Assembly (NCBI GenBank): GCA_030523305.1
Contig: JAUNIY010000009.1
Span: forward strand, 1 to 43,020
Origin: Eubacteriales bacterium
Lineage (GTDB): Bacteria > Bacillota > Clostridia > Oscillospirales > Butyricicoccaceae
DNA length: 43,020 nucleotides
Reading direction: 5' to 3'
The stretch's first letter is position 1. Each line of letters begins with the position of its first letter. Under the pieces are notes generated by a model. It saw only the letters and a program-made list of their open reading frames with translations. It had not been told where the DNA came from and searched no databases. Of the stretch, positions 10,182-40,491 are shown one piece after another. The translations under genes were made by a program, and so were the position numbers.

Positions 10182-10997
10182 ATGAAATCGATTAAAATTG
10201 GCGCATGCGATTGGGCGCTCCCTGGTTCTGGCCTGTATGCGACGCAAATTGCGGCGGCAGCCGGATTGGATGCCCTGTCTCTGAAGATTGGGTTATATGA
10301 AAACGACTATCCCATCACCCATGCGGAAATGCAGCGGATCTATCTCAACGAGCAGCAGAAATATGGCATCGAATACTGCGCCATTGCACTCAATGACTTT
10401 GATAACATTCCGATGCATGCGCGCAAAGGGACGAAGGAATATGATATCGTTTGGGATTTGCTGCGTCGCGCCGTCCTGACGGCAAAGGCGCTAGGCGTAC
10501 ATATCATTCAGGTACCGGGGTTTGCGGCAAGCGAGGTCAAATCCGAAGAGGATATGGTACACAGCGCGCGGGCATTCCAATATCTGTGTGATGCGGCGGG
10601 GGAGCATGGCATCGCAGTTGCAGGCGAGAACCTCATGGCGCCCGATACATTTAAACAGCTGTACGATAGGGTGGACCGCAAGAATTTCCACTTGTATTTT
10701 GACAGCCAGAACTACAATGTATTCCGCGGGTATTCAGAGATCGATATCCTGGAAGGCTTGTATCCATACATGTGCAACCAGCTGCATGTCAAGGACGGCG
10801 AGGAGATGAGCGGCGGCCTGCTGGGCACCGGCCCATCTCAGTTTTTTGAAACGATGCAGTGGCTGAATGAGCATGATTACACCGGCTATATCCTGCTGGA
10901 AAATTATTATGACCAGCTGCCGCTCCGCTTGCAGCACGAAAATCCGTACGAGCTGCTCCGGCAGGATATTGCGACCCTGAAAAAAGCAATTCAATAA
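10182..10997 (+). CDS. sugar phosphate isomerase/epimerase, TIM barrel
   Basis: A 271-residue xylose-isomerase-like TIM-barrel protein. The N-terminus KIGACDWALPG, and the segments VAGENLM, YFDSQNY, NQLHVKDG and YILLENYY, sit where this superfamily places metal ligands and active-site residues (Glu, Asp, His, Glu). AAAAGGAGG precedes the ATG. The IolG-type dehydrogenase follows 36 bases later, so the two are co-transcribed. It probably isomerises or dehydrates a keto-sugar or inosose. It is only distantly similar to the isomerase at 6408, so the two are not simple duplicates. Confidence 0.88.
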   Translation: MKSIKIGACDWALPGSGLYATQIAAAAGLDALSLKIGLYENDYPITHAEMQRIYLNEQQKYGIEYCAIALNDFDNIPMHARKGTKEYDIVWDLLRRAVLTAKALGVHIIQVPGFAASEVKSEEDMVHSARAFQYLCDAAGEHGIAVAGENLMAPDTFKQLYDRVDRKNFHLYFDSQNYNVFRGYSEIDILEGLYPYMCNQLHVKDGEEMSGGLLGTGPSQFFETMQWLNEHDYTGYILLENYYDQLPLRLQHENPYELLRQDIATLKKAIQ

Positions 10998-11033
10998 TTT
11001 ATTTTCTTGATTCATTTAAAAAGGAGATATCAT

Positions 11034-12041
11034 ATGAAAGTAGCAGTGATTGGCGCAGGACGCATTGGCCGCGTCCACATTGAAAATATCAGCACCAGCG
11101 TGCGCGACATGGAGATTCAGACGGTGGCAGACCCGTTTTTGACCAGCGATACGGTGGATTTCTGCAATAGCTTTGGCATTACAAACGTTACGAAGGACGT
11201 CGATTCTGTTTTTGTAGATCCGGAAATCGAAGCTGTCCTCATTTGCTCCTCTACCGACACACATGCGGACTTGATTATGCAGGCGTGCGAAGCCGGTAAG
11301 CATATTTTTTGTGAAAAGCCGGTTGACCATGATGTGAAACGCGTGCGGATGGCCTTGGACGCGGTCAGGAAGGCTGGCGTCAAGCTGCAGATCGGTTTTG
11401 TTCGCCGCTTTGATCACAACCATCGCGGCGTATATGACGCGGTGCGCAGCGGAAAAATTGGTACGCCGCATATCCTAAAAATCAGTTCCCGCGATCCGCA
11501 GCCGCCCACAATCGAATATGTGCGTCGTTCTGGTGGCATCTTTTATGATATGATGATTCATGATTTCGACATGATCCGCTTTCTGGCAGGCTGCGAGGTG
11601 ACCGAGGTCTATGCAAAGGGTGCGGTTCTCGTTGATCCGGCGATTGGCGCAGAGGGCGATGTCGATACCGCTCTGGTTACGCTAACCTTTGAAAACGGAG
11701 CGATCGGTATCATTGACAACAGCCGTCAGGCTGTCTATGGATACGATCAGCGTCTGGAGGTGTTTGGATCAGAAGGTGCTGTACAGGACGAGAACGATAT
11801 CCCGAATACTGTTGTGGTATCCCGCGCAGATGGCACGACATATGGCACGTGCTATCAGGTGATGTGGGATCGGTATACCCAAGCATTTGTCGACGAGATG
11901 AAGGCGTTTGCGGATGCCGTTATTCATGACAAGGTGCCGCCGGTCACCGATTTGGACGGATTGTATCCGGTGCTGATGGCGGCCGCCGCGAACAAATCGA
12001 TGCAGGAGGGCCGCCCGGTCAAGATTTCCGAGGTTTCCTGA
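11034..12041 (+). CDS. iolG: inositol 2-dehydrogenase-type Gfo/Idh/MocA oxidoreductase
   Basis: A 335-residue NAD-dependent dehydrogenase expected to oxidise myo-inositol (or a close relative) to the inosose. The Rossmann motif is VAVIGAGRIGRVHIENI. CEKPVDHD carries the catalytic Lys. IGFVRRFD and MMIHDFDMIRFLAG match the conserved core of the IolG family, where Asp and His near the HD pair act in catalysis. The ATG at 11034 follows AAAAAGGAG; the in-frame ATG at 11007 has no SD. It is the last gene of the plus-strand catabolic set and is closed by a strong terminator. Overall resemblance to IolG is clear from memory of the family, but substrate preference is untested. Confidence 0.85.
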   Translation: MKVAVIGAGRIGRVHIENISTSVRDMEIQTVADPFLTSDTVDFCNSFGITNVTKDVDSVFVDPEIEAVLICSSTDTHADLIMQACEAGKHIFCEKPVDHDVKRVRMALDAVRKAGVKLQIGFVRRFDHNHRGVYDAVRSGKIGTPHILKISSRDPQPPTIEYVRRSGGIFYDMMIHDFDMIRFLAGCEVTEVYAKGAVLVDPAIGAEGDVDTALVTLTFENGAIGIIDNSRQAVYGYDQRLEVFGSEGAVQDENDIPNTVVVSRADGTTYGTCYQVMWDRYTQAFVDEMKAFADAVIHDKVPPVTDLDGLYPVLMAAAANKSMQEGRPVKISEVS

Positions 12042-12489: not shown

Positions 12490-13332
12490 ATGGAATATAT
12501 CATCACAGAGAGTATATGGGAGCAATTTCGACAGGCGATGAAGGAGCAGGAGAAAAGCGCGGCAACCCAAGCGAAGTACGTCAATGATTTGCGTTGTTTT
12601 TGCCGTTACTTGGGGAGTGAAAGGACGGTGACAAAGGAAACGGTCATTGCATATAAGGAATATCTGGCGGAGAACTACGCGAAAACCAGCGCCAATTCTA
12701 TGCTGGCAGCCATAAACTATTTCTTTTCCGTGGTGGGCTGGCTGGACTGCAAGGTCCGTATGTTTAAGCTTCAACGCGAAATCTTCCGGGCCAGTGAAAA
12801 GAATCTGACAAAACAGGAGTATTTCCGTCTGCTGGAGACGGCAAAGCAGCAAAAAAATGAAAGGTTGTATCTTTTGATGCAGACCATTTGTGGGACAGGG
12901 ATCCGCGTGAGCGAGCTGCAGTTCATCACGGTAGAAGCCCTGCGTACGCAGCGGGCTGCGGTATCGTTAAAGGGGAAATCCAGGATCGTACTGATTCCCA
13001 AAAAGCTGTGTCAAAAATTAAAGGCTTATGCGAAGCGGCAGGGGATCTTACGGGGGAGCGTTTTCGTCACGAAGAGCGGCAAGCCGATGGATCGCAGCAA
13101 CATCGCACATGAAATGAAGCGGCTGTGCACTGCCGCAGGGGTAGCGGAAGAAAAAGTATTTCCGCATAATCTCCGGCATTTGTTCGCTGTGACGTTTTAT
13201 CAGAAGGAGGGGGACTTATGTTATCTGGCGGATATTCTGGGGCATGCCAACATCAACACGACGAGAATTTATACGCGCGTCAGCTGCGAAGAGCAGGGGC
13301 GGAGGCTGGAACGGCTGGGATTGGTCTCATAA
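12490..13332 (+). CDS. tyrosine recombinase, likely the inversion switch recombinase
   Basis: A 280-residue XerC/XerD-like tyrosine recombinase. The N-terminal SAM-like arm-binding domain covers about residues 1-95 and the catalytic domain about 105-275. All catalytic residues are visible: Arg139 (GTGIRVSEL), Lys163 (KGKSR), His226 and Arg229 (PHNLRH), His252 (LGHANI) and nucleophile Tyr261 (TTRIYTR). The SD is AGAGAGG. The gene ends 28 bases before the left arm of a perfect 27-bp inverted repeat enclosing a promoter, so its most likely job is to invert that segment. It is the size of single-domain switch recombinases. No phage genes accompany it, which argues against a prophage integrase. 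The specific pairing is inferred from position. Confidence 0.93.
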   Translation: MEYIITESIWEQFRQAMKEQEKSAATQAKYVNDLRCFCRYLGSERTVTKETVIAYKEYLAENYAKTSANSMLAAINYFFSVVGWLDCKVRMFKLQREIFRASEKNLTKQEYFRLLETAKQQKNERLYLLMQTICGTGIRVSELQFITVEALRTQRAAVSLKGKSRIVLIPKKLCQKLKAYAKRQGILRGSVFVTKSGKPMDRSNIAHEMKRLCTAAGVAEEKVFPHNLRHLFAVTFYQKEGDLCYLADILGHANINTTRIYTRVSCEEQGRRLERLGLVS

Positions 13333-13360: not shown

Positions 13361-13387
13361 ACCACATAATATGCATTATGTGGTAGC
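13361..13387 (+). repeat. left inverted repeat of the invertible segment (IRL)
   Basis: This 27-base arm is the exact reverse complement of 13661-13687. It is itself quasi-palindromic: ACCACATA and TATGTGGT flank the asymmetric 8-base centre ATATGCAT, and AGC extends one side. Two inward half-sites around a 6-8 base spacer is the usual layout of a tyrosine recombinase site, and the asymmetric centre would set direction. Confidence 0.92.
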
Positions 13388-13572: not shown

Positions 13573-13601
13573 TTGCAATTGCCGCAAATACTATGTATGA
13601 T
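13573..13601 (+). promoter_or_regulatory. switch promoter within the invertible segment
   Basis: TTGCAA (13573-13578) and TATGAT (13596-13601) are separated by exactly 17 bases. It is the best promoter match between the recombinase gene and the surface protein. Expected transcription begins near 13608 and crosses the right repeat, giving a leader of about 390 bases before the start at 13998. Confidence 0.75.
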
Positions 13602-13660: not shown

Positions 13661-13687
13661 GCTACCACATAATGCATATTATGTGGT
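13661..13687 (-). repeat. right inverted repeat of the invertible segment (IRR)
   Basis: Perfect 27-base reverse complement of 13361-13387. The match stops exactly at both ends: the flanking bases at 13388/13660 and 13360/13688 do not pair. This defines a discrete site. In the presumed ON state it is transcribed as part of the leader and can fold as a hairpin. Confidence 0.92.
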
Positions 13688-13997: not shown

Positions 13998-16900
13998 ATG
14001 AAAAGCTATCTGAACAGACTGCTTAGCTTTCTGCTTTCGCTTGCGATAGCCAGTGGCGTTCTAGTAACGCCGGGCTTCGCGGTCGAAGAGAAAACAGCAG
14101 AGGATGCGTCTGCAACGACAGATGTTGCGGATACGCAGGCTGCTGAGCAAGAAAGTGCAGCGAATGGTGCGGAAGCGTCCGGTACCATTACGGTAGAACA
14201 AAACTATGGAAGCTACACCGTCACGGCGAGCGGTATCGATGCGGCGAGCGCAGTTTCGGATGTTACGCTTCCAGCGGAAGATGTTGCCGTCGATTCGAAC
14301 GACCCAGCGACTGCAGCCGTTGAGGAAGAACTGAACGACATGACGGTCTTGAACGAAAACGGGAAATCCGTTGGCTTGACCGACGAGCAGATCGAAACGG
14401 TTTTGCAGATGTACACACAGTACAAGCAGAATTGGGAACAGAATGCAGATGTGCTGGGGGCGCAAATGCCATTCTATTTGCAGTATAACGATGACAACGA
14501 GGATGGTCTGGGGGTTTTAGGCGAAATGCTGGTTCTGGCTGGCTATACAGTCGATGACGTCAGAAGCGGCAAATATAGTTATGATGATCTGACCGGCATG
14601 ATCACGACCTTCTATTACGGCGATACGTTGGGTGTGGACTATTACGGTGATACCATCCGCAGCCAGCGTGACGATGCCCTGAAGACAGTAGAAGAATCGG
14701 GCGCGAAGACAGAATACCAGAAGCTGCTGGTCCTGAACGACTGGCTGGCAACGGTGGACAGCTTCGATATGTCGTACATCATGAACGCCGGCGAGGAAAC
14801 GCCGTCGATGCAGGCGGAGGAAGCAACCAAGCACGCCCATTATGATGATATTTACGGCGTGATGTATGATTTTTATCAGCCGCAGATTGAGAAAAACTTC
14901 CATGACCAGATTTATGAAGGCGTAAAATCCAACCTGCGCCAGCAGGTTTATGAGAAAGGCATTCGGGAAGCTGCTTATCAGGCGTACCTTCGTGACGAGA
15001 CGAATGGCATTGCAGATCCGAACAATCCGACAGAGGAGGAACAGGCCAAGGCCAATGCCGCGATTGACGAATGGATGGAGGAAAATGCGGATGCCATTGC
15101 TTCTAATCCGTCCGAGTTTGCTAAAGAGAATCTTGGAGAAGACGTAAAGAAGGAGCTCGATGCGCAGGCAGATGCATTCATTTCCACAGCGGAAACGGAT
15201 GGCATCGAGGTAGACCCGGAAAATGCGCCGGGCGTGAAGATGACCATCGAGCAAATGACCCAGCAGATGCTGGAAAGTGAAGACAAGAATGTCGATCTGG
15301 ACGGCGATGGAACTGCGGACGCTTCGTTTGCGGAGGCGATTGCGCTGTATTCCGACCAGGCGGCTTCCGGCCTGACCACCGGCGTGCTCAACTACTGGGA
15401 AGGCAACCACATCGGCGCGCTGGCAGAAGGCAAGTCGGTTTGCCTTGGCTATGCAAAGGCGTATGCATACCTGATTCAGTGCATGCATCCGGAGCTTTAT
15501 GGCAAAGACGGTGCGGGCACGGATATGACGCAGGCTGCAAACTGGAAGCCTGCCACCGAACTGTACTATGACAGCGACGGAAACCTGGATATCGATGCCG
15601 ATTATGAAGTCGATTTGGTGCGCATCACGTTTGATACGTCTGTCACCATGTACGGCGAGACCAAAGAGGGCTTCAACTCCGACCATTTCTGGAATGCCGT
15701 CAAGGTTGACGGGAAGTGGTACTATATCGACCCGTGCTATAACGACGTCTACAGCGAAGTTATGATCCGCGACCGTGTGGAGACAGCAGGTTTCATCAAC
15801 CACATGTACTTCATGTTCAGCCATGACACAACGACAGCGCTGTATGACGGCTATTACAGCGAGATCAAGACGATGTATGCAGAGGCTGCCAACGACAAGA
15901 CCTATGAGGACGCGTGGTTTGCCCGCGCCAAGACCAATGTATATTCCGACGGAAGCAAATACTATTATGTTTATGATTCCACCGATCTGATTTCCATGCT
16001 GGAGGAATACAACAACAGCCAGGATTATTCCGATCTGATGAGTGAAAGCGCACGGTATAAGCTGGTCAGCCGGGATATCACGGACAAGGACAACGGTGAC
16101 GGCGATACCGATTACAATGCGCTGATTGAGTTCAACTATTCGGAAGATGAAGACGATGAGTTGGGCGTAGCACGCGTTTACAACCCGTCTACCGGCGAGA
16201 TGGAAGAAAATGAACTGCTCACGGAGCTGTATGCAAAGCATGCGGAACAAGCAGAAATCTATCCATCGATCTTTATTACAACGGCATTGTCCGACGGCAA
16301 ACTGTATTTTAATCTGTCCAACTGTATTTTGACCTATGATCTGGAAAGCGGCGCTGTCCAGGTGGTGAAGGAATACAAAACGACCTACGGAACCCGGGAT
16401 AAGACCAAGGCGTTCGGCGGTATGGCGTTCGCTCTGTCCGAGAGCGAAGGAACGTTCCAGTTTGAGAACCATCCAATCGCAGGCATTTGTCAGGATGGCG
16501 ACAATCTGATCGTTTCCATTGCGACCAATTTGGCGTATATCTCCGGCAAGGACGATGGAACGCGCTCTGGCAGCTATACCGCAGACAACGCAGAAAACGG
16601 ATATGGCTACGAGTACGAAGAGTCCAACTACAATCCGGATTATAGCAACTACAAAATGGGCGATTATGACGATGATATGATCGAACAGTTTGGCTATACG
16701 AAGGAAATCAATGACAACGACGAATTTATGTGGGTTGCCAATCTTGTAGGCACGGTGCCGTTCTCGGAGCTGTCACCGGTAGAGGATTTCAAGGTTTCGA
16801 GCTGCAAGCATCATTATATCCACTTTGCAGAGCAGTATTTTACCAAAGATGACGACGGCAACTGGAACACTGGTGAATGCTACGTCTGCACGCAGTGCGG

Positions 16901-19900
16901 CAAGGCTGTTGAAGAACCGACCGAGCCGAAAGAAAATGCAAACTGGAACCAGACTGGAACCAGCTACGAGGAACAGAAAGCACAGTACGATAAGGACAAG
17001 GCGGAATATGATGAAATTGTCGCTTCTGCCGGTCATACGTATCAGCCTACGGATGCGGAATGGAACAGCGATGAAGAAGGCAACCAGACGGTTTCGTTCT
17101 CAAATCTGGAATGCTCCGCAGACTGTGCGCAAAAGAAAAATCATCTGGATTGCCTGATCAATGATGACACCATCCAGGTCACACTGGAGGAAGCAGTTAC
17201 CAGCACAGAGGTTGAGAAGAAGGTCCAGGGCAATTGTGAGGAAGGCTCGGAAGTTGTCTACACGGCGACTGGCAAGACAGCCGAAGGCTATGCATACACG
17301 GCAACCAAAACCGAACAGCAGGACCCTGGTGAGCACAGCTACGAAAGCACATTTACATGGACGAAAGGTGAAGACGGAGGCTATACGGCAACCGTAGATC
17401 TGGTTTGTGCCGTCTGCGGCGATGAGCAAAAGGGCATTGAGGCTACCGTCACCGAAGACACAACCGAAGCTACCTGCACCGAAGCAGGCAAGACCGTATA
17501 TACTGCTACCGCAGCACAGGGTGACAAGACCTATACCGAGGACAAGACGATAGAAATCCCGGCGACCGGCCACGATTACGAAAGCAAATTTACGTGGACG
17601 GAGAATGAAACCGGAGGCTATGCGGCAACGGCGAAGTTGGTTTGTTCCAAGTGCAACGATGAGCAAGAGGAAGTTGCAGCTACCGTCACCGACAAAACAA
17701 CGGCTGCTACCTGTACCGAAGCGGGCGAGACCGTATATACCGCTACGGTAGAACTCGACGGGGAAACCTATACCGATACCAAGACAATAGAGATCCCGGC
17801 GACCGGCCACAAGTACGAAAGCAAATTTACGTGGACGGAAGCTGGAACCGGAGGCTATACGGCAACAGCAAGCCTGACGTGTGAAGGCTGCGGAGACAAG
17901 AAAGAAGATGTCCCGGCGACTGTCACTTCAGACACAACCGACGCTACCTGCACCGAAGCAGGCGCAACCGTATATACTGCCACTGCAGAACTCGACGGGA
18001 AAACCTATACCGACACCAAGACGGTAAAGATCCCAGCGCTTGGCCACGATTACGACAGCACATTCGCGTGGGCAGAGAGTGAAGACGGAGGCTATACCGC
18101 GACGGCAAACCTGGTTTGCTCCAGATGTGATGACAAGCAAGAGGGCATTGCAGCTACCGTTACCGACAAGACAACGGCTGCTACCTGTACCGAAGCAGGC
18201 GAGACCGTATATACCGCTACTGTAGAGCAGGATGGAAAAACCTATACCGATACCCAGACGGTAGAACTTCCGGCGACCGGCCACAAATACGAAAGCAAAT
18301 TTACGTGGACGGAAGGTGAAGACGGAGGCTATACGGCAACGGCAAGTCTGACCTGTGATAACTGCGGCGACAAGAAAGAAAATACTCCGGCGACTGTCAC
18401 TGCAAAGACAACTGACGCTACCTGCACGGAGGCAGGCGCAACCGTATATACTGCCACCGCAGAACTCGACGGGGAAACCTATACCGAGGACAAGACGGTA
18501 GAAATCCCGGCGCTCGGCCATGATTACACCAGCACATTCGCGTGGGCAGAGAGTGAGGACGGAGGCTATACCGCGACGGCAAACCTGGTTTGCTCCAGAT
18601 GTGATGACAAGCAAGAGGGCATTGCAGCTACCGTTACCGACAAGACAACGGCTGCTACCTGTACCGAAGCAGGCGAGACCGTATATACCGCTACTGTAGA
18701 GCAGGATGGAAAAACCTATACCGATACCCAGACGGTAGAACTTCCGGCGACCGGCCACAAATATGAAAGCAAATTTACGTGGACGGATGCTGAAGACGGA
18801 GGCTATACGGCAACGGCAAGTCTGACCTGTGCTGGCTGCGGAGACAAGAAAGAAGATGTCCCGGCGACTGTCACTGTAGAGACAACCGACGCTACCTGCA
18901 CCGAGGCAGGCGCAACCGTATATACTGCTACCGCAACGCTCGAAGGGGAAACCTATACCGACACCAAGACGGAAGAGATCCCAGCGCTTGGCCATGATTA
19001 CACCAGCACATTCGCGTGGGCAGAGAGTGAAGACGGAGGCTATACGGCAACGGTAGATCTGGTTTGTGCCGTCTGCGGCGATGAGCAAAAGGGCATTGCA
19101 GCTACTGTCACCGAAGAGACAAAGGCTGCTACCTGCACTGAAGCGGGCGAGACCGTATATACAGCTACCGTAGAGCAGGATGGAAAAACCTATACCGATA
19201 CCAAGACGGTAGAACTCCCGGCGACCGGCCACAAATACGAAAGCAAATTTACGTGGACGGATGCTGAAGACGGAGGCTATGCGGCAACGGCAAGCCTGGG
19301 TTGCTCTAGGTGTGATGGCAAGCAAGCGGGGATTGCAGCTGCCGTCACCGAACAGACAACAGCTGCCACCTGCACCGAAGCGGGCGCAACCGTATATACT
19401 GCTTCCGCAGAGGTCGAAGGGGAAACCTATACCGACATCAAGACGGTAGCGATCCCGGCACTCGGCCACAAGTGGGATGACGGTGTCGTCACAAAGGAAC
19501 CGACGACAACCGAGAGCGGTATCAAAACCTATACTTGCACCGTGTGCATGCAGACCCGAACCGAGGAGATCGATCCGCTTCCGGACGACTCGAAGCCGGT
19601 TTACGAAATCTTTTCCGACCTGTCCGCAGGCGCATGGTATATCGATGCCATTCAATATGCATATGACAACAACATCATGGCCGGTATGGGGAATGGGACC
19701 TTTGAGCCCAACTCGTCGATGACCCGCGCGATGGTTGCGCAGATTGTGTATAATGTGGCAGGCGCGCCTGAGGTTTCCGGTGATATCCCGTTCGTGGATG
19801 TACCGTCCGATAGATGGTATTCCGACGCCATCCTTTGGGCAAGCCAAAACAATGTTGTGGCAGGCATGGGAGACGGCACGTTCCATCCGAACGACGTTAT

Positions 19901-20147
19901 CACGCGTGAACAATATGCCTCTATCTTGTATCATTATGAGAAACAACCGGCGGTTTCCGGTTCCCTGGATTTCCCGGATGCTGCGGAAGTCGGCAGCTGG
20001 GCAGTCGATGCTATGCTGTGGGCAAACCAGCGTGGTATTATCACTGGTACAAAAGAAGGCGACACGGTACTGCTGCAGCCGAAGGGCTCTGCAACTCGTG
20101 CACAAAGTGCAATGATATTGATGAATTATCTGAAAACAGCATCTTAA
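13998..20147 (+). CDS. giant secreted SLH surface protein with transglutaminase-like domain and nine repeats
   Basis: A 2049-residue secreted protein. The signal peptide covers residues 1 to about 30 (LLSFLLSLAIASG, cleavage near GFA). An acidic helical region follows. A transglutaminase/papain-like domain has Cys482 (GKSVCLGYAKAY), His563 (DHFWNAV) and Asp578 (WYYIDPC) spaced as a catalytic triad. A Cys-rich unit (GECYVCTQCGK) and a degenerate repeat lead into nine 79-residue repeats (residues 1113-1823), a half repeat (HKWDDGVVTK onward) and three SLH domains (about 1870-1925, 1932-1987 and 1993-2049). SLH domains anchor proteins to pyruvylated cell-wall polymer. The start has AAGGAG. The only good promoter upstream is the invertible one. 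The protein may crosslink or process surface proteins or act as an adhesin; that function is inferred. Confidence 0.93.
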   Translation: MKSYLNRLLSFLLSLAIASGVLVTPGFAVEEKTAEDASATTDVADTQAAEQESAANGAEASGTITVEQNYGSYTVTASGIDAASAVSDVTLPAEDVAVDSNDPATAAVEEELNDMTVLNENGKSVGLTDEQIETVLQMYTQYKQNWEQNADVLGAQMPFYLQYNDDNEDGLGVLGEMLVLAGYTVDDVRSGKYSYDDLTGMITTFYYGDTLGVDYYGDTIRSQRDDALKTVEESGAKTEYQKLLVLNDWLATVDSFDMSYIMNAGEETPSMQAEEATKHAHYDDIYGVMYDFYQPQIEKNFHDQIYEGVKSNLRQQVYEKGIREAAYQAYLRDETNGIADPNNPTEEEQAKANAAIDEWMEENADAIASNPSEFAKENLGEDVKKELDAQADAFISTAETDGIEVDPENAPGVKMTIEQMTQQMLESEDKNVDLDGDGTADASFAEAIALYSDQAASGLTTGVLNYWEGNHIGALAEGKSVCLGYAKAYAYLIQCMHPELYGKDGAGTDMTQAANWKPATELYYDSDGNLDIDADYEVDLVRITFDTSVTMYGETKEGFNSDHFWNAVKVDGKWYYIDPCYNDVYSEVMIRDRVETAGFINHMYFMFSHDTTTALYDGYYSEIKTMYAEAANDKTYEDAWFARAKTNVYSDGSKYYYVYDSTDLISMLEEYNNSQDYSDLMSESARYKLVSRDITDKDNGDGDTDYNALIEFNYSEDEDDELGVARVYNPSTGEMEENELLTELYAKHAEQAEIYPSIFITTALSDGKLYFNLSNCILTYDLESGAVQVVKEYKTTYGTRDKTKAFGGMAFALSESEGTFQFENHPIAGICQDGDNLIVSIATNLAYISGKDDGTRSGSYTADNAENGYGYEYEESNYNPDYSNYKMGDYDDDMIEQFGYTKEINDNDEFMWVANLVGTVPFSELSPVEDFKVSSCKHHYIHFAEQYFTKDDDGNWNTGECYVCTQCGKAVEEPTEPKENANWNQTGTSYEEQKAQYDKDKAEYDEIVASAGHTYQPTDAEWNSDEEGNQTVSFSNLECSADCAQKKNHLDCLINDDTIQVTLEEAVTSTEVEKKVQGNCEEGSEVVYTATGKTAEGYAYTATKTEQQDPGEHSYESTFTWTKGEDGGYTATVDLVCAVCGDEQKGIEATVTEDTTEATCTEAGKTVYTATAAQGDKTYTEDKTIEIPATGHDYESKFTWTENETGGYAATAKLVCSKCNDEQEEVAATVTDKTTAATCTEAGETVYTATVELDGETYTDTKTIEIPATGHKYESKFTWTEAGTGGYTATASLTCEGCGDKKEDVPATVTSDTTDATCTEAGATVYTATAELDGKTYTDTKTVKIPALGHDYDSTFAWAESEDGGYTATANLVCSRCDDKQEGIAATVTDKTTAATCTEAGETVYTATVEQDGKTYTDTQTVELPATGHKYESKFTWTEGEDGGYTATASLTCDNCGDKKENTPATVTAKTTDATCTEAGATVYTATAELDGETYTEDKTVEIPALGHDYTSTFAWAESEDGGYTATANLVCSRCDDKQEGIAATVTDKTTAATCTEAGETVYTATVEQDGKTYTDTQTVELPATGHKYESKFTWTDAEDGGYTATASLTCAGCGDKKEDVPATVTVETTDATCTEAGATVYTATATLEGETYTDTKTEEIPALGHDYTSTFAWAESEDGGYTATVDLVCAVCGDEQKGIAATVTEETKAATCTEAGETVYTATVEQDGKTYTDTKTVELPATGHKYESKFTWTDAEDGGYAATASLGCSRCDGKQAGIAAAVTEQTTAATCTEAGATVYTASAEVEGETYTDIKTVAIPALGHKWDDGVVTKEPTTTESGIKTYTCTVCMQTRTEEIDPLPDDSKPVYEIFSDLSAGAWYIDAIQYAYDNNIMAGMGNGTFEPNSSMTRAMVAQIVYNVAGAPEVSGDIPFVDVPSDRWYSDAILWASQNNVVAGMGDGTFHPNDVITREQYASILYHYEKQPAVSGSLDFPDAAEVGSWAVDAMLWANQRGIITGTKEGDTVLLQPKGSATRAQSAMILMNYLKTAS
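17334..19466 (+). repeat. nine tandem 237-bp repeats encoding 79-residue units
   Basis: Nine in-frame units run from a His codon at 17334 to a Gly codon at 19466, with no spacer. Each unit begins H(D/K/S)Y, contains a CxxC pair (such as LVCAVCGDEQ or LTCEGCGDKK) and a later ATCTEAG, and ends ETYTDTKT-x-x-(I/L)PA(T/L)G. Later units alternate between an HD-type and an HK-type. Units 4 and 6 are almost identical in DNA, so a 474-bp double unit was copied recently. Three cysteines per unit suggest metal binding or disulphides. Confidence 0.95.
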
Positions 20148-20444
20148 ATCATATTATGCCGTATTGTCTGAGGCAAAAGCGGAAGGTGCAGGCTTTACGG
20201 ATGCACCGGAACGCATGGACGCGCTTTTGAGGCGAGCAACTTGATTTCGCCGCGCTGCGCCCGTATTTTATCTGCTGTCCGGCTCTGCCGGACAGCAGCT
20301 TATTTTATGTTTCTGGTGTGGGAATAAAAGGAAGCGCCTTTTGCCTGTTGCAGCAATTATGATGATTTACCAGATACCCATCCACATGGCAGCGCTTACG
20401 TTGCGCTGCGATATCACGGAGCGATAAAGGGGGTAAGGAGAACA
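20148..20444. other. intergenic region between the surface protein and the HTH regulator
   Basis: Contains the surface-gene terminator (20272-20308) and a second hairpin, GCAGCGC-TTACGTT-GCGCTGC (20387-20407), just ahead of the regulator start. No clear promoter pair and no gene are seen. Confidence 0.5.
20272..20308 (+). terminator. terminator after the surface-protein gene
   Basis: A perfect 12-bp stem, CTGCTGTCCGGC with GCCGGACAGCAG, over a 3-base loop, followed by a T-rich CTTATTTTA stretch. It lies about 125 bases after the stop codon. Confidence 0.75.
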
Positions 20445-21932
20445 ATGGAAGAAAAAAACAGATTCGGGAAATTGCTGGATCAAATGATGTCCGCGGTAGA
20501 CATGAAAAACTATACGTTGTCGAAGGCATTAAAATATGACGTTTCTTATATCAGCAAATGGGTGAACGGGCATATACTGCCGTCGGAAAAAACGGCGGAA
20601 CAGATCATTGGGAACATTATCCGCTGTATTATCAGCTCTGCGAATGAAGGGCAAAAGCAGATGTTCTTACAGGATTATCAGGTTCACAATGAACAGGAAT
20701 TGGAAGCGGCAATGTACGACCACCTGAAATGTGAATACGATTATGCGAGGATTCAGCAAAAGAGCCAGAATGCTGCGAATACATCCTACTTTGTATACTA
20801 TCCTGAGCTAAGCTTGGCGCAGTTTATTGTCCGGCAAAACCATCCTGTCTTACGCCGTGTGAGTTCTCTGAATATTATGGCGTCGATGGATTTGCTGTCC
20901 ATGGAACATGAATACCGACTGCATATTGTCAGCGTGCAGCATGAATGGGCACACCCGAGCTTGACGTTCCCCAATGTACATTTTTCTTTGTCCATCGACA
21001 TCGAGCGGTGGGCGGAACATATCATATATGACACCATCTTTTTGCTCAACCTGCTTTCCAGCTGCATGCATATCGATTTTAAGCTATACGGAAGCAGCCA
21101 CTCCCGTGGACATCTTCTGTTTGCGGTGGAAAAAGATTTTTCCATCGCGGGCCTGCTGATGGACCAGCGGAGGTGCTTGTCCGTTGTGGTGAGCGAGGAC
21201 CCGGATACGGCCCAGATCATGTATGAAAATATCAAGCATTTCTGTGTGCGGGAAAACCTGCTGTTTCGGAAAACCACGATAGCGCATATGATCCAGAAAA
21301 ATGGATATCTGCAAACCCTATTGGGACAGAACAACTGTTGGCTCATGGGGCGGCTGACGGAGCATTTTCTGCCAGACGATTTATTTGAAGAACTGTTGGA
21401 ATCTGTTTGGGAACAGCTGGAAAACAATAGAGAGCTGCACAACAAAGAAGAACTCAAGAAGCTGCACATGCTGACATGCAATATGTTGGAAACTGTCCCG
21501 CTGCGCGTTCTCGTTTATGAAACTGCGTTTCAGGACATGATTGTCAACCGGCAGATTGACTTTTTCAATCAAAAGATCACCCTGACCGAAACGCAGTGTA
21601 AGCGGTATTTGCAGCATCTGTTTGGCCTTGTAAAACACCAACCGACCTTCCAATTCCGGCTGATACAGGGACAATTTGTTTCGGACTATCGCTATGTTAC
21701 CTCGCAATGTCTGTTTTTAAACGACGCAGTTTCTTATTTGTATCTGGACAACGAATCCAGCGGCACAGTGGTTTTGGTTGCCAACCGAAGCGATGTGAAG
21801 GAACGGCTGAAAGCATTTTTTGAGGAGATATGGTCGGAGAAAACGGATTGTATCATCTGCGGAACGGAGGACATTCACGCATATTTGGACGACACGCTCC
21901 GACATTTCAAGATGATCTATGGACTGCAATAG
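20445..21932 (+). CDS. HTH protein with a large unrecognised C-terminal region
   Basis: A 495-residue protein. Residues 1-60 look like a Cro/C1-type DNA-binding domain (YTLSKALKYDVSYISKWVNG, then LPSEKTAEQI). The remaining ~430 residues match no family I know. They appear soluble and alpha/beta, with no membrane segments, signal peptide or obvious catalytic motif. AAGGAG lies just upstream of the ATG. It stands between the phase-variable surface protein and the polysaccharide locus, both transcribed in the same direction, so it may regulate the polysaccharide operon or respond to the cell surface. That role rests on position alone. The length rules out a simple repressor and implies a sensor or protein-interaction domain. 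Confidence 0.8.
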   Translation: MEEKNRFGKLLDQMMSAVDMKNYTLSKALKYDVSYISKWVNGHILPSEKTAEQIIGNIIRCIISSANEGQKQMFLQDYQVHNEQELEAAMYDHLKCEYDYARIQQKSQNAANTSYFVYYPELSLAQFIVRQNHPVLRRVSSLNIMASMDLLSMEHEYRLHIVSVQHEWAHPSLTFPNVHFSLSIDIERWAEHIIYDTIFLLNLLSSCMHIDFKLYGSSHSRGHLLFAVEKDFSIAGLLMDQRRCLSVVVSEDPDTAQIMYENIKHFCVRENLLFRKTTIAHMIQKNGYLQTLLGQNNCWLMGRLTEHFLPDDLFEELLESVWEQLENNRELHNKEELKKLHMLTCNMLETVPLRVLVYETAFQDMIVNRQIDFFNQKITLTETQCKRYLQHLFGLVKHQPTFQFRLIQGQFVSDYRYVTSQCLFLNDAVSYLYLDNESSGTVVLVANRSDVKERLKAFFEEIWSEKTDCIICGTEDIHAYLDDTLRHFKMIYGLQ

Positions 21933-22237
21933 TCGAAGCTGCTGCGGAACCATGCTGTGGTGTGCGCCACATACAGATTGTTTGGATAAAACATGAAAGA
22001 AAGGAATTATTTGCTATTTTTCGTGTTGAAAGTTTGTGATTCATCTTTTATGGAAAATTGTCCAGTTGATGAATGTGACAGTAAAAATTGGATATGTTAT
22101 CATAATACTTGGCTAAAGCTTGACCGGAATAGTAGATCAGGGGGAATGAGACTTGCTTCTCCGCATGCGCGCGTTTTGTTCCGGATAAGCTTTTCTATTC
22201 TGTTTTGGCTGTTATGGAACTTTATGAGGTGAACAAA
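21933..22237. other. promoter region of the polysaccharide locus
   Basis: This 305-base spacer holds the promoter at 22075-22103. No terminator for the preceding regulator and no small gene are recognised, so some read-through from the regulator is possible. Confidence 0.5.
22075..22103 (+). promoter_or_regulatory. promoter of the adenylate-forming ligase and polysaccharide locus
   Basis: GTGACA (22075-22080) and TATCAT (22098-22103), each five of six matches to consensus, are separated by 17 bases. They lie about 135 bases before the start codon at 22238. Confidence 0.75.
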
Positions 22238-23980
22238 ATGAAACAAACTTCTGTTACTGGGAAACCCAGTGTGGATAGACCTTGGATGAAGTATTATCCG
22301 CAGGCATTGTTGGACATGATCCAGCTGCCGGACTGTACATTGGAGCAGTATTTGCGTGAGCACTGCCCTGGCATGGAGGTCCCCGCCGTGGAATATTACG
22401 GCGAGCAAATCCGCTGGGCATCTGTTTTTGAGGAAACCGACCAGATCGCCCGCTCCCTGCGCGCGCTTGGATTCGGCGAAGGGGATCAAATCCCGACGTT
22501 CTGGCGGATGGTGCCGGAATTCGTCCCGATGCTGCTCGCTGCGGAACGGATCGGTGCGTCGATTCTTTGCCGGGACAACACGATAGAAGAGAATGTAGAA
22601 GCGGCGGTTAAGTCTGGTGCAAAGGCGATCTTTGTCCACGATTTCCTGACCCAAAAGGAGCTGGAAAAGTTCCGCAAGGGAGGAATTCAAACCATCGTCG
22701 TTCTGCCGACCATGCAGCACGGAAGCCGTAAGGATATGCCGGAGCACAACCGCGAATGTCTGGATTCGTATTATATCGGGCAGCTGTGTTCTGCAAAGGA
22801 AACCTTGAGCTGGGACATGTTCCTCAAGATCGGGAACTATTATGTTGGAGACCTGTATGCGCCGACTGACACACACAGGCCGCTGTACCGTTGCTATACC
22901 AGTGGGTCGACCGGCCCTTCCAAGCAGGTCATCCACTCGGCGGATACGATGTTGGGCATTATTTGCCAGATGAACTTTTATGGCAGTGCAGAGGGATTCC
23001 GCCCCAACTGGCTGGTCACCTGTCTTCCGCCGTCTTTGGTGGCTGTTGTCGTATGTATGGTTCTTTTGCCGATGGCCTCCAACAAGCTGCTGATTCTGGA
23101 TCCCTTTGTTTTTGAAGAGGATGTAGATCTGGAAATCATGCGGTATAAAGCGAACAATTGGCCGCAGATCCCGCTGTTTATGGAAACCATTATGCGCAGC
23201 AAACGCATTCCGGATGACTACGATATGTCGCATCTGCTGGCGGGCGGCGCAGGCTGCGAAGCAATCAACAACAACCAGTTGCGCCGGGCACAGAAATATT
23301 TTGACAGCCACGGCTGCAAATTCCGCTACACCACGGGATACGGGTGCAGCGAAGCGGGTTCCAATGTCACGCTGCATATGTCACCCAAGCCGTTGGGCAA
23401 TGGCAATGTCGGTGTTCCGCTGCCGCTGAGTATCATATCGATCTTCAAGCCGGGGACACAGGAAGAGCTGGGCTACAATCAGGTCGGCGAGATTTGCAAA
23501 ACTGGCGTCGGGAACATGTTGGGATATGATGATCCGAAGGCGACCGCAAAAGCATTGCAGCTGCATCAGGATGGCAACGTATGGCTGCATATGGGCGACC
23601 TCGGGTATATGGATGAGGACGGCGTAATTTATGTTGTCACCCGCGGACAGTCCCCGCGCCATGGCGGTGGATATCTGGATATCCAGACGATGGAAAACCG
23701 GGTTGCAGATGCGGATATTCCGGGGATTGACGATGAATTTTTTGTCAATTGCCCAGATGAGGAGCACGAAGGCTGCTTCCTGCCCTATTTGTTTGTTGTC
23801 CTGAAACCAGGCCATACGGTGGACGATATCCGGGATGCAGTGGATGCCTGCCTGGAGCCGCATATGCGCCCGGAAGAGATCATTGCACTGAAAGAACGGC
23901 CGTTCTGGCATTTTAAGACCAACCGGATAGGGCTTTCCAAGGAAATTATTGCGTCCCGCAGGCTGGAAAATGCTGTCTGA
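22238..23980 (+). CDS. AMP-binding (adenylate-forming) ligase
   Basis: A 580-residue member of the acyl-CoA synthetase/NRPS adenylation/luciferase superfamily, which activates a carboxylic acid as acyl-AMP. The core phosphate-binding motif YTSGSTGPSKQ is at residues 220-230. Also visible are GYGCSEAG (the A5-like motif), MGDLGYMDEDGVIYVVTRG (hinge and ribose-binding Asp) and a C-terminal RIGLSKEII whose Lys would be the catalytic lysine. The ATG at 22238 has AGGTGAAC upstream. There is no carrier domain and no nearby carrier-protein gene, so the acceptor is probably CoA or an external carrier. Its place at the head of the polysaccharide locus suggests it supplies an acyl group for glycan decoration, but it could be unrelated. 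Confidence 0.88.
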   Translation: MKQTSVTGKPSVDRPWMKYYPQALLDMIQLPDCTLEQYLREHCPGMEVPAVEYYGEQIRWASVFEETDQIARSLRALGFGEGDQIPTFWRMVPEFVPMLLAAERIGASILCRDNTIEENVEAAVKSGAKAIFVHDFLTQKELEKFRKGGIQTIVVLPTMQHGSRKDMPEHNRECLDSYYIGQLCSAKETLSWDMFLKIGNYYVGDLYAPTDTHRPLYRCYTSGSTGPSKQVIHSADTMLGIICQMNFYGSAEGFRPNWLVTCLPPSLVAVVVCMVLLPMASNKLLILDPFVFEEDVDLEIMRYKANNWPQIPLFMETIMRSKRIPDDYDMSHLLAGGAGCEAINNNQLRRAQKYFDSHGCKFRYTTGYGCSEAGSNVTLHMSPKPLGNGNVGVPLPLSIISIFKPGTQEELGYNQVGEICKTGVGNMLGYDDPKATAKALQLHQDGNVWLHMGDLGYMDEDGVIYVVTRGQSPRHGGGYLDIQTMENRVADADIPGIDDEFFVNCPDEEHEGCFLPYLFVVLKPGHTVDDIRDAVDACLEPHMRPEEIIALKERPFWHFKTNRIGLSKEIIASRRLENAV

Positions 23981-24206
23981 CGCGATCGTATCTATGCGCT
24001 GCGGAAATACCATATTGCCGGTGTTTCCGCAGGTCATGCAGATGCGCCTGCTTTGGCAGTCCCAGCTTGTCTATGGGAAACCAGGCGGAGCAGCGTAAGC
24101 ATGGCTGGATTGGAAAAGTCGGATTCCGTGCGTTGGCCTTGGGATTTGTTTTGCATGCTGTTGGCGGTTAGATGGAAAGCGCGTTTTGGATAGCGGGAGG
24201 AATGGT

Positions 24207-25445
24207 TTGGAACAACGGAGGAACATTGCCGTAGCAGGCATGGGATATGTTGGCCTGTCGCTGGCGGTCCTGTTGTCGCAGAAAAACCATGTTACAGTGG
24301 TTGACATTGTATCGGAAAAGGTGGACATGCTCAACAGACGGGAGTCGCCGATACGCGATGCGGAAATCGAACAATACTTACGCGAAAAAGATTTGGATTT
24401 ACACGCAGTCTCGGATGCAGACGAGGCGTACCGGGATGCGGAATGGATTCTTGTTGCAACGCCGACCAACTATGATCCCCAGAAGAATTTTTTTGACACA
24501 TCGGCAGTGGAATCCGTGCTGACGCAGATCGAACGCGTGAATCCGGATGCCACTGTTGTCATCAAATCGACTGTGCCTGTCGGATTTACAGAAACGGTGT
24601 GTGAAGCATATCCCATGGATCTTTTGTTCAGCCCCGAATTTTTGCGGGAATCCAAGGCATTATATGACAATTTGTATCCATCCCGCATTATTGTCGGATA
24701 TCCGCGCCGTGCGCCTGCGCTGCTGGAGCAGGCGCAGCTTTTTGCGGGATTGCTCCAGGCATGTGCAAAGAAAGCCGATATCCCCACATTGTTTATGGGC
24801 TGTACGGAGGCGGAAGCCGTCAAGCTATTTGCCAATACCTACTTGGCGCTGCGCGTCAGTTATTTCAATGAATTGGATACCTATGCGGAGAGCAAAGGGC
24901 TGCGGACAGAGAAAATTATCCGAGGCGTTTGCTTGGATCCGCGCATCGGAAGCCAGTATAACAATCCCAGCTTTGGCTATGGCGGGTATTGCTTACCGAA
25001 GGACACCAAGCAATTGCTCGCAAATTATTCCGACGTGCCGCAGAATATGATATCCGCGATTGTCGAAAGCAACCGCACAAGGAAGGATTTTATCGCGGAG
25101 CGCGTATTGCGTATGGCAGGATATGACGATGATGCACTGTACGGGGAAGGGAAGAAACCTCCCGTTACGATCGGCATATTCCGTTTGACGATGAAATCCG
25201 GATCGGATAATTTCCGGCAATCATCGATCCAAGGCATCATGAAGCGCGTAAAAGCAAAAGGTGCGAATGTGGTTATCTACGAGCCGACGCTGCCCGATCA
25301 CAGCACGTTTTGGGGTTCGGCGGTTGTCAACGATTTGGCTGCGTTCAAGGCGCAAAGCGAGGTCATTTTGGCAAATCGATACGAACGATGCTTGGACGAT
25401 GTGCGGGAAAAGGTATATACCAGGGATATTTTTCAAAGAGATTGA
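24207..25445 (+). CDS. ugd: UDP-glucose 6-dehydrogenase
   Basis: A 412-residue nucleotide-sugar dehydrogenase oxidising UDP-glucose to UDP-glucuronate with two NAD. The Rossmann motif AGMGYVGLS is at residues 10-18. [19 protein letters not shown], Lys206 and Asn210 ([10 protein letters not shown]), and catalytic Cys262 in [15 protein letters not shown] are all present. A TTG start at 24207 is chosen because GGGAGG lies six bases upstream and no in-frame ATG exists before the Rossmann motif. It is short and of the bacterial Ugd/TuaD type. With the epimerase at 30485 it would provide UDP-glucuronate and UDP-galacturonate for the polymer. The 226 bases before it hold an imperfect hairpin near 24001-24033 without a T run, and no gene. 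Confidence 0.93.
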
Positions 25446-25521
25446 TGGAATGATAGGGACCGTCCGGCACACAAACAGGAACGCCGGCGGAAAATGGGGG
25501 AAGCCTTAGGAGAGTGAAACG

Positions 25522-26235
25522 ATGCAAATGATCAAGCGCCATACAGACAGAATTGAAATCAATATTTTTGCTTTGGCGCGGCTACTTTGGAAAAAAATAT
25601 TGCTCTTGCTGCTGTGTGGTTTGTTGTGCGCAGCCGCAGCTTTTTTCTGTGTCAAGGTTTTTGTGACACCGCAATATACGGCGTCAGCTATGCTTTATGT
25701 CAACAACACGCGGTACACCGATGCCGTGACGTCGATATCCGAAAGCGATTTGACGGCGTCTGCGCAGCTGGTGGAGACCTGTACGGTCATTATCACCAGT
25801 GATGCTGTGTTAACGCCCGCGATACAGAGGCTGGATGGGAATTGGACAACGGAAATGCTGACGGAAAAGCTTTCCGTGGAAGCGGTCAACGGCACGGAGG
25901 TATTTCAAATTTCTGTGGAAGATGAAAGCCCGGAACAGGCAGCGCAGATTGCACAGACGTTGACCGAGGTGGCTTCTGGCAAGATCGCTGAAATTGTGGA
26001 GGGCAGTTCCGTCCGCGTCATTGTCGGCGCGTCTGTCCCAACAGAGCCGTCGTCGCCGGATTATGTCAAATATACGGCAGTCGGGTTCTTGCTGGGCTTT
26101 TTACTCGGCATCATCATGATAGTTCTGCGGGAAATACTGGATGACCGGATCAAACAGAAGGCAGATCTGGAGGAAAAGGAATACCCTGTGCTTGGCACGA
26201 TTCCGGAATTTTCAGCGGCGGAAAGGCTCCGTTAA
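25522..26235 (+). CDS. CpsC/Wzz-type chain-length and kinase-activator membrane protein
   Basis: A 237-residue polysaccharide co-polymerase. A membrane segment near residues 22-46 (ILLLLLCGLLCAAAAFF) and another near 182-203 (VGFLLGFLLGIIMIVL) frame an extracellular Wzz domain, with the Pro-rich PTEPSSPDYVKYT just before the second. The family controls polymer chain length and activates the partner tyrosine kinase. The partner is encoded directly downstream (16 bases away), which is the split arrangement of Gram-positive bacteria. The SD is AGGAGAG. The length is normal for CpsC/YveK-type proteins. Confidence 0.93.
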   Translation: MQMIKRHTDRIEINIFALARLLWKKILLLLLCGLLCAAAAFFCVKVFVTPQYTASAMLYVNNTRYTDAVTSISESDLTASAQLVETCTVIITSDAVLTPAIQRLDGNWTTEMLTEKLSVEAVNGTEVFQISVEDESPEQAAQIAQTLTEVASGKIAEIVEGSSVRVIVGASVPTEPSSPDYVKYTAVGFLLGFLLGIIMIVLREILDDRIKQKADLEEKEYPVLGTIPEFSAAERLR

Positions 26236-26251
26236 GGGGAAGGAGGAACGG

Positions 26252-27022
26252 ATGAGGATACGGAAAGATAGAAAGATATCCCGAAAACAAAACACGAACA
26301 GGAATTGGCTTTTGACAGATCATATGCCGTTTTCTGTGATGGAAGCATACAAATCCGTACGGACCAACTTGATTTTTTCCCTGCCGGAGGAAAGCTGTAA
26401 AAAAATTTTAATCACCAGCGCACTGCCGGGCGAAGGGAAGAGCATTACGGCAATCAATTTGGCGTTGTCCTTCGCGCAGAACAAATCGCGCGTGCTGCTG
26501 ATCGACTGCGATCTTCGGCTGCCGACAACGGCCAGCAAATTGGGTACGAAGCATGTCCCTGGGTTGACCAATGTATTGGTGGGAATTCATTCCATGCGCG
26601 ATGCGTTGCAGCATTTTCCTGTTGGGCTAGATTACCTTCCAGCCGGGGATATCCCCCCGAACCCAGTAGAATTGTTGGGGACAAAGAAAATGGAACAGCT
26701 GGTAGAAGAGCTCAGCCAGTCTTATGACTATATCATCTTTGATGACCCGCCGGTAGAAGAGCTGTCCGATTCGATCGTTTTGTCCAAGCTGATGTCGGGC
26801 GTTGTGTTTGTTGTGAAAACCGGCAGTACCACGCACGGTAGTTTGGATAGCGCGGTATCCCGGTTGCAAATGTCCGGCGCCAAAATTCTTGGATTTATCA
26901 TGACCCAGGCGCCGCTCGATCATGACCGGAAATATGCTTATAAGAAAAAATATGGTTACGGTTATGGCTATGGCTATGCGAGCAGCTATGCCAATGCGCA
27001 GAAAACCGGAGAGCAGGTATGA
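26252..27022 (+). CDS. CpsD-type bacterial tyrosine kinase
   Basis: A 256-residue BY-kinase ATPase, the cytoplasmic partner of CpsC. Walker A is ALPGEGKS (residues 57-64), Walker A' is LLIDCDLR (82-89) and Walker B is YIIFDDPP (160-167). The C-terminal tyrosine cluster, where autophosphorylation occurs, contains eight Tyr between residues 228 and 246 in a striking run of Gly-Tyr repeats. The ATG at 26252 has AGGAGG upstream; the frame stays open further back into cpsC without an SD. The stop overlaps the start of the phosphatase gene by four bases, so expression is coupled. Confidence 0.95.
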   Translation: MRIRKDRKISRKQNTNRNWLLTDHMPFSVMEAYKSVRTNLIFSLPEESCKKILITSALPGEGKSITAINLALSFAQNKSRVLLIDCDLRLPTTASKLGTKHVPGLTNVLVGIHSMRDALQHFPVGLDYLPAGDIPPNPVELLGTKKMEQLVEELSQSYDYIIFDDPPVEELSDSIVLSKLMSGVVFVVKTGSTTHGSLDSAVSRLQMSGAKILGFIMTQAPLDHDRKYAYKKKYGYGYGYGYASSYANAQKTGEQV

Positions 27023-27729
27023 TTATTGATTTTCATACCCATATTTTGCCTGGCATCGACGATGGAAGCCCAAATCTTGCTGTGTCAATGGATATGCTCA
27101 GGGAGATGCTCCGTCAGCAGGTGGGCTGCGTCGTCGCAACGCCGCACTGCAATGTATATCGGACATCTGTGGATGATTTTTTGCGCCGGAGGGAGCGTGC
27201 CCAGCATGCGCTGCTGGAGGCTGCCCATTCGGAACATATGGATATCCGGCTCATTGCCGGTGCTGAGGTTTCCTTTTTTCCGGGTATTTCCATGCTGCAT
27301 GGCATAGAGCAGTTGTGTATCCAAGGGACCAACCTATGTTTGCTGGAAATGCCGTTTCGCACATGGTCACGACAGGATATCCAGGAAGTCAACAGCCTGA
27401 TCCAACAGGGAATCGTGCCGGTGATTGCGCACTTAGAACGATATCAGCAGGGAAAAGAGGCGCTTGACATGCTGCTGGCCCTACCGGTTTATGCGCAGAT
27501 GAATGCGGAATACCTATTGAAATGGAGTACGCGACGCCAGGCGCTGCGCTGGATCAAGGCGGATATGGTACAGCTACTCGGTTCGGATTGCCACAACACA
27601 GCATCCAGGCCGCCCAATTTGCAAGCGGGACGGAACGTGCTGCGAGAGAAACTGGGACAGGCGTTTTTGCATCAAATGGATCTCTTTGGCCAAAAGCTGT
27701 TGGGAGTATACGAAGACGGAGAATTGTGA
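27019..27729 (+). CDS. CpsB-type PHP-family protein tyrosine phosphatase
   Basis: A 236-residue metal-dependent phosphatase of the PHP fold that removes phosphate from the CpsD tyrosine cluster. Metal-ligand motifs are in the expected order: DFHTHILPGIDDG (His6, His8), VVATPHCN, GAEVSFFPG, VIAHLERY and GSDCHN. Its ATG overlaps the kinase stop (ATGA). Kinase, activator and phosphatase together set the phosphorylation cycle that tunes polymer length and export. It is complete and of normal length. Confidence 0.94.
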   Translation: MIIDFHTHILPGIDDGSPNLAVSMDMLREMLRQQVGCVVATPHCNVYRTSVDDFLRRRERAQHALLEAAHSEHMDIRLIAGAEVSFFPGISMLHGIEQLCIQGTNLCLLEMPFRTWSRQDIQEVNSLIQQGIVPVIAHLERYQQGKEALDMLLALPVYAQMNAEYLLKWSTRRQALRWIKADMVQLLGSDCHNTASRPPNLQAGRNVLREKLGQAFLHQMDLFGQKLLGVYEDGEL

Positions 27730-28436
27730 TGGAAACGATATATGCGGAGGAGCAAAACGCTGCCCGCGATCGCACAGCATGGGCAGAGCAGATAGAACGG
27801 GAATTGACCCAACGGATCGCAGAGGAAAGCAAGGCCTATGGCGTGATCAAACGGGTGGGGGATATTGTGCTGTCTTTGGGGGGATTGCTGTTCCTGCTGC
27901 CGTTGTTTGCAGCATTGTGCGTTGTCATTTATCTGGATGATCCGCATGGAAGCCCCATCTATTCCCAGATCCGCATTGGAAAGGATGGAAAGCCGTTCCG
28001 GTTTTACAAATTCCGCAGTATGGTTGTAAATGCCGATCAGCTGCGCGGCAGCCTGGAAGCATACAATGAAAAGGACGGGCCTGTTTTTAAGATGAAGCAA
28101 GATCCGAGAATTACGCGGGTTGGCCGCGTGATCCGGCGCACCAGCTTGGACGAGCTGCCACAGCTGTGGAACGTGCTGCGCGGAGAAATGTCAATGGTAG
28201 GCCCTAGGCCGCCCCTGCCTGACGAGGTGGCGCAATATGATGCGTATCATAAACTGCGCCTGCTGGTCAAGCCGGGGCTAACCTGTTTTTGGCAGGTCAA
28301 AAAGACCAGGGACCAGGTCGGATTCAGCAAATGGATGGATATGGACATAGAGTATATCAGGAAACGCTCCTTGCTCGTGGATATCAAATTGATTTTTCTG
28401 ACGTTTGGCGCAGTTTTTCGCGGACAGGGAGAATGA
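27729..28436 (+). CDS. initiating undecaprenyl-phosphate sugar transferase
   Basis: A 235-residue member of the bacterial sugar transferase family (short WbaP/CpsE/WcaJ C-terminal type). It transfers a sugar phosphate from a UDP-sugar to undecaprenyl phosphate, the first step of repeat-unit assembly. One membrane or re-entrant segment (about residues 44-66) is followed by FYKFRSMVVNAD, the Asp-Glu DELPQLWNVLRGE and MSMVGPRPPLP, all hallmark motifs. Its ATG shares one base with the phosphatase stop codon. The N-terminal membrane domain of long homologues is absent, which is common. Which sugar it transfers cannot be told from sequence. Confidence 0.93.
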   Translation: METIYAEEQNAARDRTAWAEQIERELTQRIAEESKAYGVIKRVGDIVLSLGGLLFLLPLFAALCVVIYLDDPHGSPIYSQIRIGKDGKPFRFYKFRSMVVNADQLRGSLEAYNEKDGPVFKMKQDPRITRVGRVIRRTSLDELPQLWNVLRGEMSMVGPRPPLPDEVAQYDAYHKLRLLVKPGLTCFWQVKKTRDQVGFSKWMDMDIEYIRKRSLLVDIKLIFLTFGAVFRGQGE

Positions 28437-28438
28437 AG

Positions 28439-28912: not shown

Positions 28913-28944
28913 TATGCCGCATGTATGGATCGGGAGAAGATGAG

Positions 28945-33824: not shown

Positions 33825-33826
33825 AT

Positions 33827-35877: not shown

Positions 35878-35883
35878 TCTGGC

Positions 35884-37329: not shown

Positions 37330-37350
37330 GAAGCAGGAAGGTGTGATACG

Positions 37351-39182: not shown

Positions 39183-39208
39183 ATGATTTTCATTGGGAGG
39201 AAATGGAC

Positions 39209-40465: not shown

Positions 40466-40491
40466 CAACAAGCGGGAAAGGAGCGTGAACC

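Follow-up and report, generated by a model that had tools for sequence, protein, structure and literature searches.

The protein encoded by the central gene of the window, a 43,020-nt stretch that is one entire contig of a 2.79 Mb genome in 251 contigs (G000), is best explained, with a modest balance of probability on our side, as an active and phase-variable surface amidotransferase or hydrolase that would be held at the wall by SLH domains on a stalk of repeats, both the catalysis and the inversion being predicted from sequence. In the proposed mechanism the protein would be secreted, anchored through SLH and kept off the wall by nine beta repeats, its Cys-His-Asp domain, judged by conservation of the triad, is most likely catalytically active, and its probable action is to form or cleave amide bonds in surface molecules, either those of its own cell or those of neighbours. 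This transglutaminase-like (TG) enzyme would share one functional set with an AMP-forming ligase and an HTH protein. An active surface enzyme is the reading ranked first, with transfer and hydrolysis left undivided, as the TG superfamily is known to contain peptidases and deamidases (WbmE) alongside crosslinkers (TgpA, which acts as a TG in vitro; PMC3507681, PMC10318531).

The transglutaminase-like domain and its stalk

The gene and the 3' hairpin that follows it are laid out thus:

13998..20147, + strand: TG-like SLH-anchored surface protein, ATG start, 2049 aa
13998..14081, + strand: signal peptide, residues about 1-28, MKSYLNRLLSFLLSLAIASGVLVTPGFA
14181..15254, + strand: N-terminal helical region, family-conserved, about residues 62-419 (alignment and secondary structure of the model)
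15255..15977, + strand: transglutaminase-like domain, residues 420-660 (profile and fold matches)
15441..15443, + strand: codon of the predicted nucleophile Cys482, invariant in 17 sequences, opening model helix 421-435
15684..15686, + strand: codon of the predicted catalytic His563, invariant, within model strand 493-509
15729..15731, + strand: codon of the predicted catalytic Asp578, invariant, immediately after model strand 512-516
15792..16823, + strand: beta-propeller-like region, residues about 599-942 (weak fold matches, Z about 7)
17331..19463 (DNA array 17340-19469), + strand: nine 79-residue all-beta repeats, residues 1112-1822
19602..20135, + strand: three SLH domains, approximate outer limits (Pfam PF00395, 3 stretches, E 5.2e-30)
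20272..20298, + strand: intrinsic terminator-like hairpin, 12-bp stem, 3' of the TG gene

The first-pass annotation had described a secreted, wall-anchored protein with a Cys482-His563-Asp578 triad and a 711-residue stalk, and this description holds in each of its parts; the open reading frame, its coordinates and the named residues were confirmed (C482 by position, H563 and D578 by alignment columns), the stalk resolves into nine repeats at exact 79-residue spacing, and both features of an SLH-anchored surface protein are present, with three SLH domains in the Pfam scan (E 5e-30) and a signal peptide read by eye in the translation. The repeats themselves are modelled with high confidence as all-beta with six strands each (three-repeat model, pLDDT 93.7), and have no structural match above Z 4.7, which does not demonstrate a new fold. 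A period of 474 bp fits the array better than one of 237 bp (85% vs 72% matches), therefore two repeat subtypes alternate, which suggests that the array grew by duplication of repeat pairs. With regard to possible zinc binding, the first aligned repeat shows no variation at the first Cys of the CxxC motif or at a Cys further on, whereas the second Cys of the motif is variable.

From the single sequence the TG domain is barely visible: in a Pfam scan up to E 1 there was no match to Transglut_core (PF01841) and SLH was the sole match above cut-off, and a phmmer search of the PDB gave no TG match, whereas profile methods did. In NCBIfam the single sequence partially matches a TG-related lipoprotein model, with NF045980 giving E 1.6e-8 on the TG domain, under its curated cut-off, and the lipoprotein model matches all 16 family members, also below its cut-off. 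Related genomes and a genome collection were the sources of relatives of the TG module; the named ones are Clostridia of gut or rumen, among them Oliverpabstia intestinalis and an Anaerostipes strain. C482, H563 and D578 are invariant in the 16 aligned sequences, together with a WYY-D motif and further residues, and a further protein of 23% identity, that of G228 from another family, keeps the same triad, making 17 sequences in total; Y485, Q494, N566, W574, Y576 and D583 are likewise invariant across the 17. Conservation over this range of sequences, the most divergent member included, excludes a chance occurrence of the triad.

Profile-profile comparison of the TG domain with twelve Transglut_core TG proteins gave a probability of 98.9 and E 1.1e-17, the triad residues falling in register; a longer region gave E 4.2e-20. 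The first-pass annotation had also proposed that a predicted structure be compared with TG and papain folds; in the AlphaFold model of residues 62-965, which is of moderate confidence (pLDDT 75.5, pTM 0.74), the Cys is the first residue of a helix, the His lies inside a strand and the Asp just past the next strand, as in the papain/TG fold (PMC10318531). Streptococcus pyogenes TglA (9crn) was ranked first by both Foldseek and VIA-align (Z 14.2 over 203 residues), followed in VIA-align by the TGase 4xz7 (Z 10.6), with the remaining rows at about 7.5 or less, and a viral structure library yielded no meaningful match. The Cys and His-Asp motifs of TglA align with the family profile, but its solved chain is of 361 residues, is only 12% identical and has neither repeat stalk nor SLH. 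Placement of the conserved triad, profile match and modelled fold thus all assign the domain to the transglutaminase-like superfamily, as predicted from sequence and model.

Recurrence of the architecture and its partner genes

Whilst the TG module is conserved among the relatives, the part downstream of it differs, and may consist of SLH (L033, L035, L036, L039), Ig-like domains (L037, L038), Fn3 (L025-L028, L032), Big_2 (L034) or choline-binding repeats (L031). Repeats of the GHxY/CxxC/TCTEAG type are found in many of these proteins, and some retain the TG core with few or no GHxY-type repeats. The first-pass annotation did not recognise the architecture as a described one and suggested that the same domain order be sought in other genomes; the full order of TG module, GHxY-type repeats and SLH recurs in L036, L035 and L033, with L039 ending at a contig end. 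Two other TG and SLH proteins are encoded in the genome of the window itself (L002 and L003, on C86 and C242), and another in a relative (L014); these are secreted like the protein of the window, but they lack the GHxY stalk, have a shorter Cys-His spacing and carry a TG domain that Pfam recognises as Transglut_core. One of L002 and L003 additionally bears an InlB-type repeat domain. The architecture is thus one version of a design that recurs, set apart by its long regular stalk. A literature search returned nothing on TG with SLH, on TG with phase variation or on the function of S. pyogenes TglA.

The two genes immediately downstream of the TG gene, which the first-pass annotation had passed over, accompany the TG module in other genomes:

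20445..21932, + strand: HTH-containing partner protein, 495 aa (weak HTH_3 match; co-occurrence)
22205..23980, + strand: AMP-forming ligase, true start may be ATG 22238 (Pfam PF00501, 2.7e-37)

Minus-strand genes called at 22100-24037 were rejected as an antisense artefact, the actual gene being that of the plus-strand ligase.

In a set made up of this genome and 149 relatives, five carry the TG module (G000, G001, G008, G009 and G010), and the ligase and HTH protein are each present in the same five plus G003, which is 65% complete. Taken over all TG-positive genomes the ligase is present in 16 of 17, and the sole TG-negative genome with a ligase among hundreds of relatives is this 65%-complete assembly. 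In an order-wide sample the ligase was found in G000, G001, G009, G010 and G228, and a high-score TG domain in all of these save G001, where the TG gene is interrupted by a contig end ahead of the domain. Furthermore, twelve additional genomes picked for their TG module contain the ligase in 11 cases (E 6e-226 or better) and the HTH protein in nine. A hypergeometric calculation for the order sample gives about 1e-11 on the assumption of independent genomes, which these are not, and 0.008 within the genus alone; co-occurrence is better supported by the return of the pattern in other lineages (L031, L032, L035, G228). A class-wide sample held strong TG and ligase copies in the genome of the window only, and so shows rarity and adds nothing on co-occurrence.

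The ligase gene of L031 stops about 40 bases ahead of the TG gene; L036 and L032 likewise have it immediately upstream. Two ligase copies flank the TG and HTH genes in one case (G010, L036 5426-7177 and 15857-17557). The HTH and ligase genes usually adjoin one another (G000-G010, G228, L025-L035), sometimes on a different contig from the TG gene. Clustering of ORFs from 36 neighbourhoods returned TG, ligase and HTH as widely shared families, and as the neighbourhoods had been picked around these genes this shows only that no fourth gene is equally shared.

We infer from these patterns that TG module, ligase and HTH protein belong to one functional set, in which the parts played by the latter two can be proposed only provisionally. 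A tentative extension, which we hold to be possible though less probable than not, is that the three constitute one undescribed surface-modification system of gut Clostridia, where the TG enzyme would attach or remove, at the surface, an activated acyl group or modified precursor made ready by the ligase.

A putative promoter switch upstream of the gene

The suggestion that the gene is under a phase switch is borne out, as far as can be predicted from sequence, by the region that precedes it:

12490..13332, + strand: tyrosine recombinase, likely inversion catalyst (Pfam PF00589, 3e-29)
13361..13387, no strand: left inverted repeat arm, 27 bp, 100% complementary to the right arm
13573..13601, + strand: promoter-like TTGCAA-17-TATGAT within the invertible segment (consensus scan)
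13661..13687, no strand: right inverted repeat arm, 27 bp, 100% complementary to the left arm

The perfect arms bracket 273 bp and the recombinase ORF adjoins them. Each arm is near-palindromic about a centre of 4 bp, ATGC in one arm and GCAT in its partner, which we interpret as what would be expected of a tyrosine recombinase core site. In the assembled orientation the promoter-like element faces the TG gene, which would be the ON state, and inversion driven by the recombinase would turn the promoter away and the gene OFF; only part of the population would then carry the TG protein. Given the strong terminator-like hairpin after the TG gene, likewise passed over in the first-pass annotation, this is probably a single-gene unit and the switch probably controls the TG gene alone.

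A second recombinase, 75% identical, is encoded elsewhere in the genome (L058, on C223, 5684-6853) beside a 253-bp segment with related arms, which sits upstream of a helicase-like ORF and genes for sugar transferase/glycosyltransferase. Much of the other segment sequence differs between the two switches, but they share TTGNAA-17-TATNAT with TG preceding the second hexamer (TTGAAA-17-TATTAT in C223) and a nearby hairpin starting ACCGATG. Upstream of the TG genes of 13 relatives no comparable inverted arms were found, only short pairs, so the switch is a local addition that lies outside the common features of the family.

The nearest functional analogue for switch and repeats, by comparison with published descriptions, is CwpV of Clostridioides difficile, a wall protein of very large size that likewise has nine repeats in tandem and inverted arms upstream, with inversion carried out by a tyrosine recombinase (PMC2784873, PMC3080850). 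The two differ in anchor and in the layout of the switch: CwpV is anchored by PF04122 domains, which are absent from the TG protein in a Pfam scan up to E 1, and the invertible segment of CwpV does not contain the promoter, whereas the promoter-like element of the TG gene lies inside.

Possible activities and their consequences

Downstream of the TG gene, on the same strand, runs a polysaccharide cluster (24186-41898) with genes for UDP-glucose 6-dehydrogenase, Wzz, ParA-like, PHP, sugar transferase, glycosyltransferases, aminotransferase, ATP-grasp-like and GH39-like proteins. On the other side, upstream of the recombinase, are a xylose isomerase-like TIM barrel protein and an inositol 2-dehydrogenase (10182-12041). 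No Rfam family reached threshold within the window, and a scan for defence systems gave one chance-level match and none that was noteworthy.

The position of the TG gene at the head of this run, which includes the enzyme for a uronic acid donor (UDP-glucose 6-dehydrogenase) alongside Wzz, sugar transferase and ATP-grasp-like genes, raises the possibility that the domain is an amidase of polysaccharide and not a crosslinker of protein, with uronamide-type groups as its target in the exopolysaccharide that the cluster makes. The analogy is with WbmE of Bordetella bronchiseptica, an extracytoplasmic enzyme of the TG superfamily that acts on a surface polysaccharide, deamidating the uronamide-rich chains of the O antigen (PMC3507681), and L033, L037 and L038 likewise have genes of Wzz/ParA type close to their TG gene. 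Against this, L030, L031, L034 and L035 are without the polysaccharide genes of the window beside the TG gene, within the stretches compared, the terminator-like hairpin parts the TG gene from the cluster, and WbmE is periplasmic and is likened here by its published description; we would give such an amidase perhaps one chance among several. Slightly less probable again is that the domain is a protease which processes surface proteins or those of neighbours: the fold and the Cys-His-Asp arrangement are common to TG and papain enzymes (PMC10318531), and the beta-propeller-like region beside the catalytic domain, into which the profile match from other TG proteins extends, could bind a substrate, but a TG-like protein and a TGase lead the structural matches and the signature in the sequence is TG-like, findings that are nonetheless compatible with proteolysis. 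It would seem improbable that the TG fold is catalytically dead and the repeats do the work through aggregation, as those of CwpV do (PMC3080850), for although the large repeat array of a probably phase-variable surface protein and the differing repeats and anchors of relatives could be read that way, the first-pass suggestion of a degenerate enzyme serving as an adhesin is disfavoured by a triad that is invariant in 17 members, one of them only 23% identical, which argues for catalysis, and by retention of the TG core where such repeats are few or missing.

An active enzyme at the surface is therefore the explanation that we retain. TG-like proteins recur in these genomes, and no described substrate was found for the TG-module family, which has a testable active site and is accompanied by two partner genes. 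This co-occurrence is a concrete genetic handle on the function of the family, and the tracking of the TG module by its partners points to an unrecognised gene set for surface modification. The switch should yield ON and OFF cells within one strain, and if the enzyme is active it would be a phase-variable one on the surface of a gut commensal, which could alter adhesion, biofilm, capsule or contact with host proteins.
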